This document shows, in pieces, positions 3,547 through 13,762 of a stretch of 47,678 nucleotides of DNA. The stretch is taken from contig CAIMSU010000050.1 in NCBI GenBank assembly GCA_903844155.1, forward strand, positions 1 through 47,678. The letters run 5' to 3'. Source of the DNA: an uncultured Pseudomonadota bacterium (lineage in GTDB: Bacteria > Myxococcota_A > UBA796 > SXON01). A program made the translations under genes and the position numbers. Under the pieces are notes generated by a model that made no database searches, was not told where the DNA came from, and saw only the letters and a program-made list of their open reading frames with translations. Every line of letters starts with the position of its first letter. The first letter of the stretch is position 1.

Positions 3547-3589
3547 GGGCCCTCCGGTCGTGCAGCGTAATCCGCAGCGTCCGCGCCGG

Positions 3590-5332
3590 TCAACCCCGCC
3601 TCCTCCTCGCCATCACCACCCCTGCGATCACGAGCGCGCCCCAGCCCGCATCCGGCGTTGTCGCACACCCCTTGCACCCGATCCCCGACCCCGTCCCCGG
3701 GCTGTTCGGATCCGTCCCGAGCAGGTATTCTTCGAGGTTGGAGAAGCCGTCGCCGTCGAGATCCTCGGCGGAGTCGTCTCTGGACGTGTCAAGGCCGTTC
3801 GCGCGCTCCCAGGCGTCGCCCATGCCGTCGTGGTCGTCGTCGTCGGGCAGGTGGAAGTCGGTGCCGTCCATCGCCTGACCGGCTGAGAGCAGCTCGGGCG
3901 CGGCGAAGTCCTGGGTGAGGGAGTCGTTCCACCACACCGTCACATAACCACGGTCGGAGGGGCAGTAATTGACGTAGCTCGCCCGGATGGTGTAGTAGCC
4001 CGCGGGGAGGCCGAGCACCGCGTAGTCGCCATTTTCGTCGGCGACGGCGGTGTAGCTGGTGTCCGGACTGTCGGCGGGGAACGCGTATACGTAGCCGCCG
4101 TACACGCCGGCACCGGCGTCGTCGCTGAGGTGGCCGGAGATGCTGGCGCCGAGGGTGAGCGGGACGGTCACGTCGGTCTGACCGTCGACCGCAGCGCCCT
4201 GGACCGCGTAGCCGTCGACAAACCCGCCATCCGAGCCGTAAACATAGAGGTCGTAGCTGCCGGACCACAGCCCACTGATCGTGAACGTGCCGTCGGCGGC
4301 GACAGGCCCGCCATTGCCGACCGTGTGCGAATCGTTGTACAGGAGGACGGAGATGGCGCCGGGGTCGCCGAGACCGGTCGCGTCTGTGAACGTGAGGTTC
4401 AAGGCGCTCTCTGCGGGCATGCTGAGGTCGGCGGTGACGTCGTCGCCCTCGTTCGGTGCGGCTACGCGCGCGTCCGTCGGCCGGTCGCTGTCCGGCCAGT
4501 ACGTCGTCGCGAGGCCGGGGACGGTTGCCCAATTGATGACGTCGCCAGGCGGGAGGCCGTCGGCGACGAAGGTGCCGTCAGCGCCGATCGTGGTGGTGAG
4601 CACCTGGGACGGCGAGTACACGAAGGTGGTGCCGCTGGTGACCGGGCCGTCGGGCCCGGTGATGAGCCCGGAGACGCGGATGCCGTCGAGGAGCGCGTTG
4701 GCGCCTGCGTCCGTGCCGGTCGGCGCTTCGGCCGGGAGGGCGACGCTGAAGGGGGTGGCGTCGGCCTGCGTGTAGGTGCTGCCGAGCCATTGCTTCGGGA
4801 AGCCGTCGAGGTCCACGGAGCACTGCCAGTCCGTCGGCTGGCCAGCATCGGCGTCCAACCCGGTGATCTGGAAGCGGCCGTCGGTGTCGGTGACGGCGTC
4901 GCGCGTGCCGAGCGCCGTGCGCGTGTCGACACCTTCTGCGGTCACGTCCGCGCCGGAGAGGGGCGTGCCGGCGAGATCCGTGAGCGTGCCGCTGAGCGTG
5001 CCGCCGAGCGGGAGGGCGAGGTCGATGCCGGTCAAGTCGGTGCCGTCGATGATCTGGACGGGCGACCCCGAGCAATAATCCCACTCGGACGGGTAGAAAC
5101 GGTCGACATACGCGGATTCTGAGCCCGGGGCGGCGCGGATCCGGTAGTGGCCGGCGGGCAGGTAGTTCATCGACCAGGAGCCGTCGTTCGTGCTCGTGGC
5201 CGTGCCGTAGTTCAGGCGCTCGTCGTAGGCGACGATCTCGACGCCAGCGAGCGGATCGCCGGCCTCGTCCGTGATGGTCCCGCTGATGGTCGTCGCTCGC
5301 GCGAGCGATGGGAGGAGGAGGGCGAGGAGCAT
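3590..5332 (-). CDS. Surface protein with CarboxypepD-like repeats and MYXO-CTERM-like tail
   Basis: 580 aa from ATG 5332; a TTG two codons upstream is possible. A short signal peptide (MLLALLLPSLARA) is followed by several beta-sandwich repeats of the carboxypeptidase regulatory-like type, such as ISGTITDEAGDPLAGVEIVA, LSGTLTDLAGTPLSGADV and ISGHLSDDAGAGVYGGYV. Next comes an acidic thrombospondin-3/EF-like calcium-binding stretch (DDDDHDGMGDAWE, DLDGDGFSNLEEYLLGTDP). The C-terminus has GCKGC, a hydrophobic segment and a terminal RRRR. That layout resembles MYXO-CTERM sorting tails, in which the Cys-containing motif, membrane helix and Arg cluster direct processing and surface anchoring. Role is inferred to be an outer-surface or matrix protein; ligand unknown. 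Confidence 0.8.
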   Translation of the reverse strand: MLLALLLPSLARATTISGTITDEAGDPLAGVEIVAYDERLNYGTATSTNDGSWSMNYLPAGHYRIRAAPGSESAYVDRFYPSEWDYCSGSPVQIIDGTDLTGIDLALPLGGTLSGTLTDLAGTPLSGADVTAEGVDTRTALGTRDAVTDTDGRFQITGLDADAGQPTDWQCSVDLDGFPKQWLGSTYTQADATPFSVALPAEAPTGTDAGANALLDGIRVSGLITGPDGPVTSGTTFVYSPSQVLTTTIGADGTFVADGLPPGDVINWATVPGLATTYWPDSDRPTDARVAAPNEGDDVTADLSMPAESALNLTFTDATGLGDPGAISVLLYNDSHTVGNGGPVAADGTFTISGLWSGSYDLYVYGSDGGFVDGYAVQGAAVDGQTDVTVPLTLGASISGHLSDDAGAGVYGGYVYAFPADSPDTSYTAVADENGDYAVLGLPAGYYTIRASYVNYCPSDRGYVTVWWNDSLTQDFAAPELLSAGQAMDGTDFHLPDDDDHDGMGDAWERANGLDTSRDDSAEDLDGDGFSNLEEYLLGTDPNSPGTGSGIGCKGCATTPDAGWGALVIAGVVMARRRRG

Positions 5333-5338
5333 CGCCAA

Positions 5339-9675: not shown

Positions 9676-10095
9676 GGGGGCCAGTGCCGGCGCTGGGCAA
9701 ACATTCACCTCGTAAGTGGCTGAAAGCGCGCGATTGGCGAGGGCAGTGGCCCCCCGGCGCGCGGTTCCGCGCACGAACCGTGCCGGATGGCGTACTCGCC
9801 GGCTGGCGTGGTTCGTGGCCTTGGAACTGCGGGAATTCAGCGCCGAGGCTGGCGCGAGCGGTAGCGAGCGGCGGGATCGGCGGGCCAATCCGTGCGCTCG
9901 ACAAACACAGCGTCTGTATCCTTCTGAAATTACGGAGATGGCTGGTCGGATTGGCCCCCCACGCGGCGTTCCCCGCACGTTCGGTGCCGGCTGCCGTCTT
10001 CGGCGGCTGGCGGCGAACGTGGCCTTGGAACGCCGAAAAATCAGCGCCGAGGCTGGCGCGAGGTGTGCCGAGCGCCGGGATCGGCGGCCTACCCC
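9676..10095. repeat. Two-copy diverged tandem repeat, period about 205 bp
   Basis: Copy A runs roughly 9676-9880 and copy B roughly 9881-10085. Shared landmarks are offset by 204-205 nt: GACAAACA or GGCAAACA near 9697 and 9900; a GGCCCCCC block at 9749 and 9953; CGTGGCCTTGGAAC at 9814 and 10018; a 22-nt identical block at 9838-9859 and 10042-10063; GGGATCGGCGG at 9873 and 10078. Identity is about 80 percent in the best 80 bp and lower elsewhere. Frames here are low-complexity and not convincing. The rest of 9648-10185 shows no gene. Confidence 0.7.
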
Positions 10096-10185: not shown

Positions 10186-10947
10186 ATGCGATTTCGCGGC
10201 CAAGAATACTCGGGAAAAGGTCAGGTCATCGCGGTCATCGACAGCGGCGTGGACGTGAACGACGCGCGGCTCAAGGGCTGCGACATCCAGGGCATGTCGA
10301 TCACGATGACAGCGACGCAGCACGTCATGGTCGCCGGCGACCACAAGGACGAGAACGGCCACGGGACCGAGATCGCAGCCGCCATCCACGCGATGGCGCC
10401 GGAAGCGAAGCTCGTCTGCATCCGGATCATGGACGCCCGGCTGCGCACCAGCGCGGATCTCATGGCGTCCGGGATCGAACTGGCGACGCGGTCGGGCGCG
10501 AAGGTCATCAACTTGTCCCTCGGAACGCCGAACATGGGCAAGGCGCTCCTCTTGCGCGACTGCTGCGCCCTGGCCGTCGAGCAGGGCGCGCTCGTCCTCG
10601 CCGCGGCGCACCCCAAGGGCGAACGGGCCTACCCGGCCGACCTCCCTGAGACCATCGGCGTCGCGAGCCACCAGGACTGCCCGATCGACAAATTCTACTA
10701 TTTCGCCGCCCATCGGTTCCCCACCAAGCAGTGGGGCAGCCTGACCGGCAAGTTCCTCGCGCACGGCTACACGCTCCAGCCGGACGGCCTGCGGGGCGCC
10801 TACCGGGGGTCCGGCATTGCGACGGCGTACCTGTCCGCGCGCGCAGCCTGCCTGCAGGAGGCCCTGCCGGGCGAAGGCCCGCTGCAAGTCACGGAGATCC
10901 TTCGGCAAACTGCGCTCACGCCGGTGCCTGAGATCGGCTACGCGTGA
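10186..10947 (+). CDS. Subtilisin-like (S8) protein, probably catalytically inactive
   Basis: 253 aa, without signal peptide or prodomain. The subtilase fold is clear: VIAVIDSGVD with Asp19, DENGHGTEIAAAI with His59, and SGAKVINLSLGT at about 103-113. At the active-site Ser motif (family G-T-S-M-A) this protein reads G208-S-G-I-A-T, so the Ser position is Gly210. The oxyanion-hole Asn region (usually AAGN) reads AAAHPKG near residue 142, with no Asn. Both changes predict loss of normal proteolysis, although Ser209 next door leaves some doubt. The product is likely cytoplasmic. It is first in a run of six genes with overlapping or nearly overlapping junctions; its stop overlaps the GTG of the FadL-like gene. 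Confidence 0.75.
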   Translation: MRFRGQEYSGKGQVIAVIDSGVDVNDARLKGCDIQGMSITMTATQHVMVAGDHKDENGHGTEIAAAIHAMAPEAKLVCIRIMDARLRTSADLMASGIELATRSGAKVINLSLGTPNMGKALLLRDCCALAVEQGALVLAAAHPKGERAYPADLPETIGVASHQDCPIDKFYYFAAHRFPTKQWGSLTGKFLAHGYTLQPDGLRGAYRGSGIATAYLSARAACLQEALPGEGPLQVTEILRQTALTPVPEIGYA

Positions 10948-12443
10948 TCCTGGCGCTCGCGCTCGTTGGCGCTCGCCTGACCCCCCATGCGTTCGCCAGT
11001 CCCACCGAGTTCTACGGCTTTGGGGCTCGAAAGATGGGACGGGCGGGCGCTGGCATGGCGATCGCCGAGGGCACGGACAGCATCCTCTCCGACCCTGCGG
11101 CGCTGCCCGGCATCACCCACCCCGAGCTCTCGGTGGGTTTTCTCGTCGCGAACAGCCAGTTCACCCAGTTTCCGGGGCTCTGGTGGGACACGAACGAGGA
11201 CGGGAAGATCGACGCGACCGACCCCCCGCTGGACGCCGGCCCCAGCTACGACCCCGTCCACGGCGTGATGATCGGGGCCACCCGCCCGCTTGGCGCGAAG
11301 GCGGCGATGGGGCTCGGCCTGTTCATCCCCGCGGAGCGCCTCCTTCGTCTGCAGACCTTTGACCCGTCGATCCCCACGTATTTCCTCTACGCCAACCGCA
11401 CCCAGCGCTACGAGATGGGCGCGGGTCTCGGCTACCGCCCGTTCGCCGGCCTGTCGATCGGCGGCGGGCTGGAGATGATCCCGCGGGCAAAATACAGCCT
11501 CGACGCGACGCTCGATCTCACGGTCTCGGGCGCGACGTCGTCGGACTCCAGCGCCTCGGACATCGTTGGCGTCGGCCTCGACGTGCACCAGATGACGTTG
11601 GACCTCATCCCGGGGTTCTCCCCGAACCTCTCGCTACACTGGGACGCCGGCGAGGCAATCCCGCTCCTGCGCGGCTTGCAGTTGGGCGCGGCCTGGCGCG
11701 GTCAGGCGGGCTTGCCCGTGGACGTTGCCATCAACCTGCAGATCAACGCCGCCACCCAGGACATGGGCAGCATCGGGAACATCACGTTGCCGCTGCTTTT
11801 TGGCGTGGAGCTGGGGGTGTTCGACCACTACGTGCCCGCGGAGCTGAACTTCGGTGGCGCCTACACGATCTCCAACGCGCTCACGCTCTCGTTGGACGTC
11901 CGCCGCACCGCCTGGGACCAGATGGAGGTGAGCATCGCGAAGGTGACGCACTCGACCATCAACGGCGCCGCGGTCGATTTCGGGACCGATCCGGTGACCG
12001 ACGGGAACCCCTACACCGTCCAATTGCAGGCCACCTGGGCGCCCCGACTCGGCGCGGACCTGCGCCTGCCCGCGATCCACACGGGGACGCGGCTCGGCGA
12101 CCTCACGATGATCACCCGCGGTGGGTTCGGCTACGAGCCAACGCCGTTGGTGGCGCAGACGGCGGATTCCGCGCTTCTGGACGCGGACCGGCTCATCTTC
12201 GCGGTGGGCCTGGGCGCCGAGTACGGGGACCCGTTCCGGAAGAAGACGACCCTGGAAATGGGCAGGCCAATCGCCCGGAAGATGCGCGTGGACGGCTTCT
12301 TCCAGTACCACCTGCTCGCGAGCGGCGCTTATGCGCGCCCCACCCCCGCCGTGCCGACCGCCGGTTACAGCGTGGATGGCTCGCCGATCCCCATCGGCGG
12401 CCACTTGCTGGCGGCCGGTCTGCAGTGGAGCTTTGAGTACTGA
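10944..12443 (+). CDS. FadL/OmpP1-family outer membrane protein
   Basis: 499 aa, GTG start overlapping the previous stop (GTGA), so translation is probably coupled. After a signal peptide (LALALVGARLTPHAFA) the mature N-terminus FYGFGARKMGRAGAGMAIAEGTDSILSDPAALPG matches the hatch region of FadL/TodX-type channels for hydrophobic substrates. Strand-like amphipathic segments follow to the C-terminus, which ends LLAAGLQWSFEY with the aromatic last residue typical of outer-membrane barrels. Substrate unknown; the neighbouring polysaccharide genes do not specify it. Confidence 0.8.
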   Translation: MILALALVGARLTPHAFASPTEFYGFGARKMGRAGAGMAIAEGTDSILSDPAALPGITHPELSVGFLVANSQFTQFPGLWWDTNEDGKIDATDPPLDAGPSYDPVHGVMIGATRPLGAKAAMGLGLFIPAERLLRLQTFDPSIPTYFLYANRTQRYEMGAGLGYRPFAGLSIGGGLEMIPRAKYSLDATLDLTVSGATSSDSSASDIVGVGLDVHQMTLDLIPGFSPNLSLHWDAGEAIPLLRGLQLGAAWRGQAGLPVDVAINLQINAATQDMGSIGNITLPLLFGVELGVFDHYVPAELNFGGAYTISNALTLSLDVRRTAWDQMEVSIAKVTHSTINGAAVDFGTDPVTDGNPYTVQLQATWAPRLGADLRLPAIHTGTRLGDLTMITRGGFGYEPTPLVAQTADSALLDADRLIFAVGLGAEYGDPFRKKTTLEMGRPIARKMRVDGFFQYHLLASGAYARPTPAVPTAGYSVDGSPIPIGGHLLAAGLQWSFEY

Positions 12444-13762
12444 TGTCCGGGTCTGACGCGTCGTCGCAGGTTGGTGACCGGATCGTGGCGCTCGGCCACT
12501 GGGCGAGAGCGCTGCGGTTGGCGGACGTTCCGGACGACGTGCAGCGCCTCGCGAGGTTGCAGCTCGCTCACGTTGGAGCGCGCGTCGCCGAGGCCCATGC
12601 GGCCGGCGTCGAGAGCCTCGCGCTCGCTGGGCGGGACGCCGCGACCTACGCCGAGTTTGACGGCGATGGGCACATCTACGGCGGGCGCACGGGCGTCGGG
12701 GTGGCGGTGCTCCGTGAGGCGGCGGGCGGTGGGGCGACGGTCGGGGACCTGGTTCTGGCGGTCGTTGTCGGGATGGAGATCGGCGCTCGGATCGGGCTTG
12801 CAACGCTGTACTCGGACCGGCTGACGGCGAGCAGCCCAGGACCCGGCGCAGCGACGGGTGCGGCGGCGCTCGCGCGGCTCGGCGGCGCGGATGGCGACGC
12901 GATCGCCGCGGCTGTCGTCGGCGCGCTGAACCTCGCGCGGCCGGGCGCGACGGGGGCGGCGTTCGGAACGGGTGTGGTCGAGGCGGCGCTCGGAGGGGCG
13001 GCGGGCCGGGGAGGCACGGATGCAGGGATCCTGTGGCGGGACGTCGCCGAGCCGCTCCCGGACGTGCTTGTGGCGCCTTCGGGCGGCGCGGGCTGGCTGA
13101 CCCGGAGCCTCGTGCTCCCGCGCCTCTGCGCGCCTCCCGCGCTCGCGACGGTGCTTGAGGGGCTGGACGAGATCCTCAAGCGGCACTTCAAGGCGGCGGA
13201 CAAGCGCCTGCGCGCCGAGCAAGTGGAGCGGATCGAGGTGCGCCTTTGCTTGCCAGCGTGGGCCTCTGAGCAGGTGCGGCCCCAGGCGCCGGACCTGATC
13301 GGGCGGCTGGTCGCTTTTCACGCCCTCGGCGTGGCGGAGCGGACGGCGTCGGACGAGCGCGCGGCGGAGGTCGCAGCGGTGGCGGAGCGGGTGGAGGTGC
13401 TGCACGACGTGGTGCTGACGGCCGGGTTCGCCCGCTCCTGCGGGGCCGCGGTGGGCGCGTTGAACCTGCGCCGAATGATGGCGGTTCGTGGGCTGCTTCG
13501 GCACGCTGGCGCCTGGCCCGCCCTCGGCCTTGCGGACGTCGGGGGAGTGGTTCGCGCTCGGCCGGACAGGCTCTTCCGCGCGGCGCCGGCCGGTGGCGGT
13601 GTCGCGCCGCTCGTTTGGCCCGTCCAGATCAAGCTCTACACGACGCGCGGTGGCTGGTGGCCGGAGCGCCGGGAGCGCGCGGAATCGGTCGACGCCGACC
13701 CGGTCGCGCCGTTTGACGGTCCCCTGGCTTCCCCGGCCGGTCCCCTGCTCGGCGCCGCGTGA
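12443..13762 (+). CDS. MmgE/PrpD-family-like protein
   Basis: 439 aa, ATG overlapping the FadL-like stop by one base (TGATG). The N-terminal DVPDDVQRLARLQLAHVGARVAEAHAAG resembles the first helices of 2-methylcitrate dehydratase/cis-aconitate decarboxylase family members. The central GDLVLAVVVGMEIGARIGLATL and SSPGPGAATGAAALARLGG segments resemble the family's second conserved block. The C-terminal half is more diverged and the usual His-rich substrate residues are not obvious, so enzyme activity is uncertain. Family members dehydrate or isomerise small tricarboxylic acids in the cytoplasm. Its place in a run of envelope-related genes is unexpected. Confidence 0.6.
   Translation: MSGSDASSQVGDRIVALGHWARALRLADVPDDVQRLARLQLAHVGARVAEAHAAGVESLALAGRDAATYAEFDGDGHIYGGRTGVGVAVLREAAGGGATVGDLVLAVVVGMEIGARIGLATLYSDRLTASSPGPGAATGAAALARLGGADGDAIAAAVVGALNLARPGATGAAFGTGVVEAALGGAAGRGGTDAGILWRDVAEPLPDVLVAPSGGAGWLTRSLVLPRLCAPPALATVLEGLDEILKRHFKAADKRLRAEQVERIEVRLCLPAWASEQVRPQAPDLIGRLVAFHALGVAERTASDERAAEVAAVAERVEVLHDVVLTAGFARSCGAAVGALNLRRMMAVRGLLRHAGAWPALGLADVGGVVRARPDRLFRAAPAGGGVAPLVWPVQIKLYTTRGGWWPERRERAESVDADPVAPFDGPLASPAGPLLGAA

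Follow-up and report, generated by a model that had tools for sequence, protein, structure and literature searches.

The subtilisin-fold protein encoded at positions 10186–10947 of the window, by which we mean the whole 47,678-nucleotide stretch of DNA analyzed here, very probably descends from QhpE and no longer works as a classical serine protease. QhpE is described in PMC7876137 as a cytoplasmic subtilase that cleaves off, in a single turnover, the 28-residue leader of QhpC, the gamma subunit of quinohemoprotein amine dehydrogenase (QHNDH). Descent from QhpE and the loss of catalysis are well supported, and the explanation that we favor, with moderate confidence, is that a QhpE lost its catalysis along with the loss of QHNDH and was retained as a pseudoprotease that binds peptides in the cytoplasm, its gene usually paired with that of a FadL-type porin. 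That the window protein works by non-catalytic binding of a putative ligand is a component of this reading toward which we lean slightly.

Residues 10–243 of the protein match the Pfam family Peptidase_S8 (PF00082; E 7e-20, 71.9 bits against a cut-off of 21.8), and an AlphaFold2 model computed with a 40-sequence alignment (mean pLDDT 92.8, pTM 0.92) has the subtilisin fold, which together place it in the S8 fold family. The original prediction had proposed structure prediction and superposition as a check, and in VIA-align model residues 1–248 indeed superpose on residues 13–259 of subtilisin BPN' with a Z of ~27 over ~218 residues and an rmsd of ~2.5. The 50 matches listed in a fold search are subtilisins; CspC was absent from those 50, which has no bearing on its relation to the window protein, and no structure named as a QhpE was present among the 60 of 109 matches listed. 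With the sites numbered as Ser221, Thr220 and Asn155 of BPN', the nucleophile motif GSGIATA places Gly210 (codon 10813–10815) in the Ser221 column and Ser209 in the Thr220 column in both pairwise and multiple alignments, with Pro143 in the Asn155 column. The Asp-His-Ser triad of an active S8 peptidase is thus incomplete, in agreement with the earlier reading that the Asp19 and His59 motifs are intact and that glycine has replaced the serine. The claimed lack of a signal peptide and a prodomain also stands, because the N terminus has no hydrophobic stretch (MRFRGQEYSGKGQV) and residue 1 of the model already pairs with residue 13 of mature BPN', leaving no prodomain. Just upstream of the gene, a 133-base repeat occurs twice in direct orientation (9751–9883 and 9955–10087; 80% alike, 204 bases apart), and a scan for promoters and terminators gave no signal above that of shuffled sequences.

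Table 1. Positions of the S8 gene, its diagnostic sites and its landmark neighbors in the window.
Feature	Positions	Strand	Evidence
Pseudo-QhpE, cytoplasmic subtilisin-fold protein, 253 aa	10186..10947	+	ORF; Peptidase_S8; NF049966 best NCBIfam profile; AlphaFold2
Asp19 codon (BPN' Asp32), VIDSGV, retained	10240..10242	+	D in 50/51 distinct order sequences
His59 codon (BPN' His64), NGHGTE, retained	10360..10362	+	H in 51/51
AAAHPKG, residues 139–145, QhpE-type replacement of oxyanion AAGN	10600..10620	+	P143 in 51/51; Paracoccus AAHPARG/AAYPARG
Ser209-Gly210, with Gly210 at the nucleophile place	10810..10815	+	G210 in 50/51, S209 in 47/51
FadL/TodX-type outer membrane protein, 4-base overlap with the S8 stop	10944..12443	+	PF03349, 40.5 bits
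C2, carboxypeptidase-regulatory-like repeat protein, divergent landmark in relatives	3590..5338	-	PF13620

The relation to QhpE and QHNDH, which was absent from the first reading of 10186–10947, emerges from profiles and trees. The best NCBIfam profile for the protein is that of QhpE (NF049966, 127.9 bits), followed by mycosin at 92.4 bits; the score is below the equivalog cut-off of 165, as is that of a homologue from a sister order (L043, 136.1), and the Novosphingobium protein passes with 178. The references were taken from four Paracoccus plasmids with annotated qhp operons, from a Cupriavidus plasmid on which the S8 gene is flanked by genes for an ABC transporter and an FAD monooxygenase, and from a Novosphingobium plasmid whose qhp operon is unannotated but recognizable. 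In a 48-row maximum likelihood tree, QhpE and the window clade stand apart from eight generic subtilases with support of 99/97 (95 in a quick tree), that is, they share an ancestry that excludes the generic enzymes. The window clade itself (support 100/99) has a stem 2.17 changes per column long, with short branches after it, and it joins Ser-bearing homologues from other orders of the class with support of 95/84. Rows excluded from the 48-row tree were L044, L052, two long generic ones, L004 (generic) and L006 (a duplicate of the window); both trees were computed without 15 close members of the order, and four generic subtilases lacking the trimming motif were not used. In an AU test, the arrangement with all Ser-bearing QhpE in one clade and the window clade as its sister is not rejected (p-AU 0.204), and under either the nested or the sister placement the sequences place the loss of the serine on the stem of the window clade. 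Ser-bearing S8 homologues are found in five of the eight other-order genomes of the class, with those of the sister order retaining GPS or GAS at the nucleophile. No plasmid-borne close relative of the window protein (>60% identity) was present among the 15 records with a match.

All the plasmid-encoded QhpE proteins keep the serine, in a GAS or ISF context, and all lack the oxyanion Asn: the segment reads AAHPARG in three of the four Paracoccus proteins and AAYPARG in the fourth, AACPAQG in Cupriavidus and AAREAGG in Novosphingobium. Since the Asn is also missing from these Ser-bearing enzymes, its absence characterizes the family and is no lesion specific to the window protein. The Paracoccus, Cupriavidus and Novosphingobium sequences thereby rule out the missing Asn as a sign of death, and the use made of it in the original prediction has to be given up.

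The ancestral context of the gene can be seen in the sister order, where locus L043 (genome G065) carries, in this order, C2 on the minus strand, a radical-SAM protein, the gamma subunit, a second subunit candidate, a 235-aa protein, an ABC exporter, a Ser-bearing S8 protein and a FadL-type protein. The radical-SAM protein (QhpD) scores 367.9 bits to the QHNDH maturase profile TIGR03906, below its cut-off of 453, and the gamma subunit (QhpC) 58.7 bits to NF037958, above its cut-off of 50. At this orthologous locus, qhpD-C-B-X-F sit between C2 and qhpE-FadL. Searched against the 8.1-Mb genome of the window (E 0.001), the C2 and FadL proteins of L043 each have a single match, at window positions 3587–5266 (−) and 10956–12437 (+), respectively. 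Because both flanking landmarks map to the window locus, the qhp cassette is what is missing there, and the Ser-bearing QhpE ancestry of the remaining S8 gene suggests that the cassette was lost in the window lineage rather than inserted in the sister order. The QHNDH-type clusters of these uncultured Myxococcota (L043, 3044–10870; L041, 2169–9663) contain QhpD, QhpC, the exporter and QhpE; within the stretch read, neither an alpha subunit nor qhpG is obvious. The 235-aa protein of the L043 cluster is Cys-rich and of unassigned family.

We searched 71 genomes of the class, 63 from the window's order and 8 from other orders. QhpC was found in none of the 63, whereas it was present in six of the eight, and the same six have QhpD at 344–373 bits, against a best score of 145.1 bits within the order, so that no genome of the order has a QhpD-grade match. 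The seven-sequence QhpC alignment recovers all six carriers at E 1e-38 or better, including three that contributed no row to it. A QHNDH hidden elsewhere in the order was ruled out by searches with PF08992, this alignment and TIGR03906.

The FadL-type gene has mostly stayed with the S8 gene. We counted neighbors in 48 of the 49 order loci (omitting L138), of which 47 could be assessed downstream, L131 having no downstream sequence: a same-strand FadL gene directly follows S8 in 39 of the 47 and does not in 8, and C2 is among the three genes upstream of S8 in 31 of the 48. In L136, 89 bases separate C2 from S8. The four-base S8/FadL overlap of the window recurs in L042 and L043 of the sister order, and the presence of the pairing in these two loci makes it older than the loss of the serine. 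Beyond FadL the genes vary between families of the order, and the clusters containing the glycosyltransferase and O-antigen-ligase-like genes of the window are common to one other locus of 34. Of the tight envelope operon that the S8 gene had been said to head, the FadL junction is therefore conserved and the surface-polysaccharide-like portion is not. The gene that follows FadL in the window (12443–13762) encodes a conserved 439-aa protein with no Pfam match (E 0.001) and no PDB match (E 1), which may resemble MmgE/PrpD. Six bins with the same Myxococcota-type locus (L093, L096, L101, L104, L122 and L139) are titled Bifidobacterium breve, Klebsiella pneumoniae or Rhodobacterales and are probably mislabeled.

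An alternative is that the S8 protein is a dedicated partner of the FadL-type porin encoded with it, regulating or escorting the porin or its precursor. The 39 of 47 loci with adjacent genes, the overlap shared by the window, L042 and L043, and a pairing that predates the serine loss are all in keeping with it, but S8 occurs in 8 of 47 loci without FadL as the next gene, and FadL-type proteins are exported, while the S8 protein carries no signal peptide. We consider this alternative unlikely. For the pseudo-QhpE that we prefer, co-expression with FadL suggests a link to the uptake of small hydrophobic molecules.

We read the four sites (Asp, His, Ser and oxyanion) in 51 distinct sequences of the order, those with E 1e-60 or better, a threshold outside which the homologue of genome G042 and fragments fall. 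The pattern was D/H/G/P in 49 sequences, D/H/S/P in one and G/H/G/P in one. The single sequence with Ser at the nucleophile column, L034 (genome G029, 1501–2259), reads SSSMATAY; it is a nested member of the clade, and its serine is probably a later change, possibly a regain. Three members of the order have a GPG motif, which fits a GPS ancestor, four of the five sister-order homologues reading GPS.

A protein that keeps Asp19 in 50/51 sequences, His59 in 51/51 and Ser209 in 47/51 might still be a protease, with Ser209 or another residue as the nucleophile of the Asp19-His59 pair; L034 has a serine at 210, and the Ser-bearing QhpE without the oxyanion Asn make the absence of that residue compatible with activity. 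We judge this improbable. Residue 209 is Pro in three and Thr in one of the 51 sequences, with the remainder of the motif unchanged, and replacement in these four makes a catalytic role unlikely, so that conservation speaks against Ser209 as a shifted nucleophile, the possibility that the original prediction had named as its refutation. The clade-specific Cys127 and Cys222 lie inside model helices 121–132 and 209–226, and neither is invariant.

Strong S8 matches without stop codons are present in 55 of the 63 genomes of the order, in two of them in pieces. The others comprise a fragment at a contig edge (G025), a diverged copy (G042) and six genomes without a close homologue, which are 73–91% complete and in 380–1040 contigs each. 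In G026 the gene is split over two separate stretches (G026:C53:5775–6862), possibly by a frameshift or insertion. The G042 homologue (L044, 7972–8667) has lost Asp, His and Ser, yet FadL follows it with a four-base overlap. The dN/dS of the window gene against four congeners is 0.062–0.073, and over 28 pairs, for which dS is high, it is 0.05–0.31. Purifying selection maintains the gene, and the description of a conserved dead subtilase is borne out by this low dN/dS together with Gly at the serine site in 50/51. That the gene is a functionless leftover of the qhp operon in the course of decay, as the vanished substrate, the loss of the whole triad in G042 and the 6/63 genomes without a close homologue might imply, is very improbable and largely refuted by the within-genus dN/dS of 0.06–0.07, and is further opposed by the invariant His59, the stop-free matches in 55/63 genomes, the long stem followed by short branches and the incomplete, fragmented state of the six genomes without the gene.

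The best conserved stretches in the order are residues 107–128 (around LSLGTPNMGKALLLR) and 139–156 (AAAHPKGERAYPADLPET), which flank the substrate groove. Alignment A3 was built from the window sequence and those of 39 of the 49 loci of the order. The 25 groove columns, chosen from BPN' contacts, have a mean entropy of 0.29 compared with 1.04 elsewhere (block-permutation p 0.0003), a difference that is only suggestive because structural Gly and core residues contribute to it.

The preferred explanation, a QhpE retained without catalysis, can be put as a sequence of events. The ancestor of the order would have lost the QHNDH genes, and the maturase would have lost its serine on the same stem. 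The fold may have been kept because the groove, formed by the Asp-His pocket, the AAHP loop and the SLGTPNMGKALLLRD segment, would now hold a different peptide ligand and leave it uncut. In that case the pseudo-QhpE would serve in the cytoplasm as an escort or sensor, and translational coupling would tie its production to that of the FadL-type porin. A binding or regulatory role, as first proposed for this gene, is reasonable as a hypothesis. The more specific proposal, that loss of the nucleophile along with the operon created a non-cutting binder throughout this order of uncultured Myxococcota, with a putative new ligand in the leader groove and a tie to the FadL-type porin, is tentative, and we would not expect it to hold in full. 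Several points count against the preferred explanation: the NF049966 score below the cut-off, the AU p of 0.204, the serine of L034, the 8 of 47 loci in which FadL is not next, and the genomes G042 and G026.

A literature search, beyond whose reach most subscription papers lay, found no report of a pseudoprotease derived from QhpE and no QhpE homologue without a qhp operon. The accessible part of PMC8172795 names QhpE in passing only, and qhp does not occur in the review PMC10885120. Few subtilisin-type pseudoproteases have a demonstrated role, the bacterial cases found in the search being CspA and CspC of Clostridioides difficile. As the parent enzyme is known by name here, along with the substrate that was lost and the locus of origin, the change from single-turnover maturase to non-catalytic protein is directly testable. 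The comparison also corrects a reading trap: subtilases of the QhpE branch ordinarily lack the oxyanion Asn, and its absence is no sign of a dead enzyme.

Among known systems, BPN' and thermitase share the fold over model residues 1–248 (Z ~27) but, unlike the window protein, have an active triad and the oxyanion Asn, and they are secreted with a prodomain. With QhpE the window protein shares its size, its cytoplasmic build without signal peptide or prodomain, the Asp and His motifs, the replacement of AAGN by an AAHP loop with a conserved Cys farther downstream, and its placement in the tree. It differs from QhpE in the Gly that replaces the nucleophile, the absence of QhpC and QhpD from the genome and the NF049966 score below the cut-off, and it has ~10 extra residues in the 170–190 region and a conserved GTPNMGKALLLRDCC segment of its own. 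CspC and CspA of C. difficile resemble it as subtilisin-fold pseudoproteases with a biological role, and CspC, for which PMC6636752 gives Gly485 at the Ser position, is by analogy the closest precedent for a functional subtilisin pseudoprotease that has Gly at this site. CspC, in contrast to the window protein, has also lost its His (Thr170), carries a prodomain as well as an S8 domain with a jelly-roll insertion, and is a spore protein; the 253 residues of the window protein, aligned to mature subtilisin over 1–248, leave no room for either addition.
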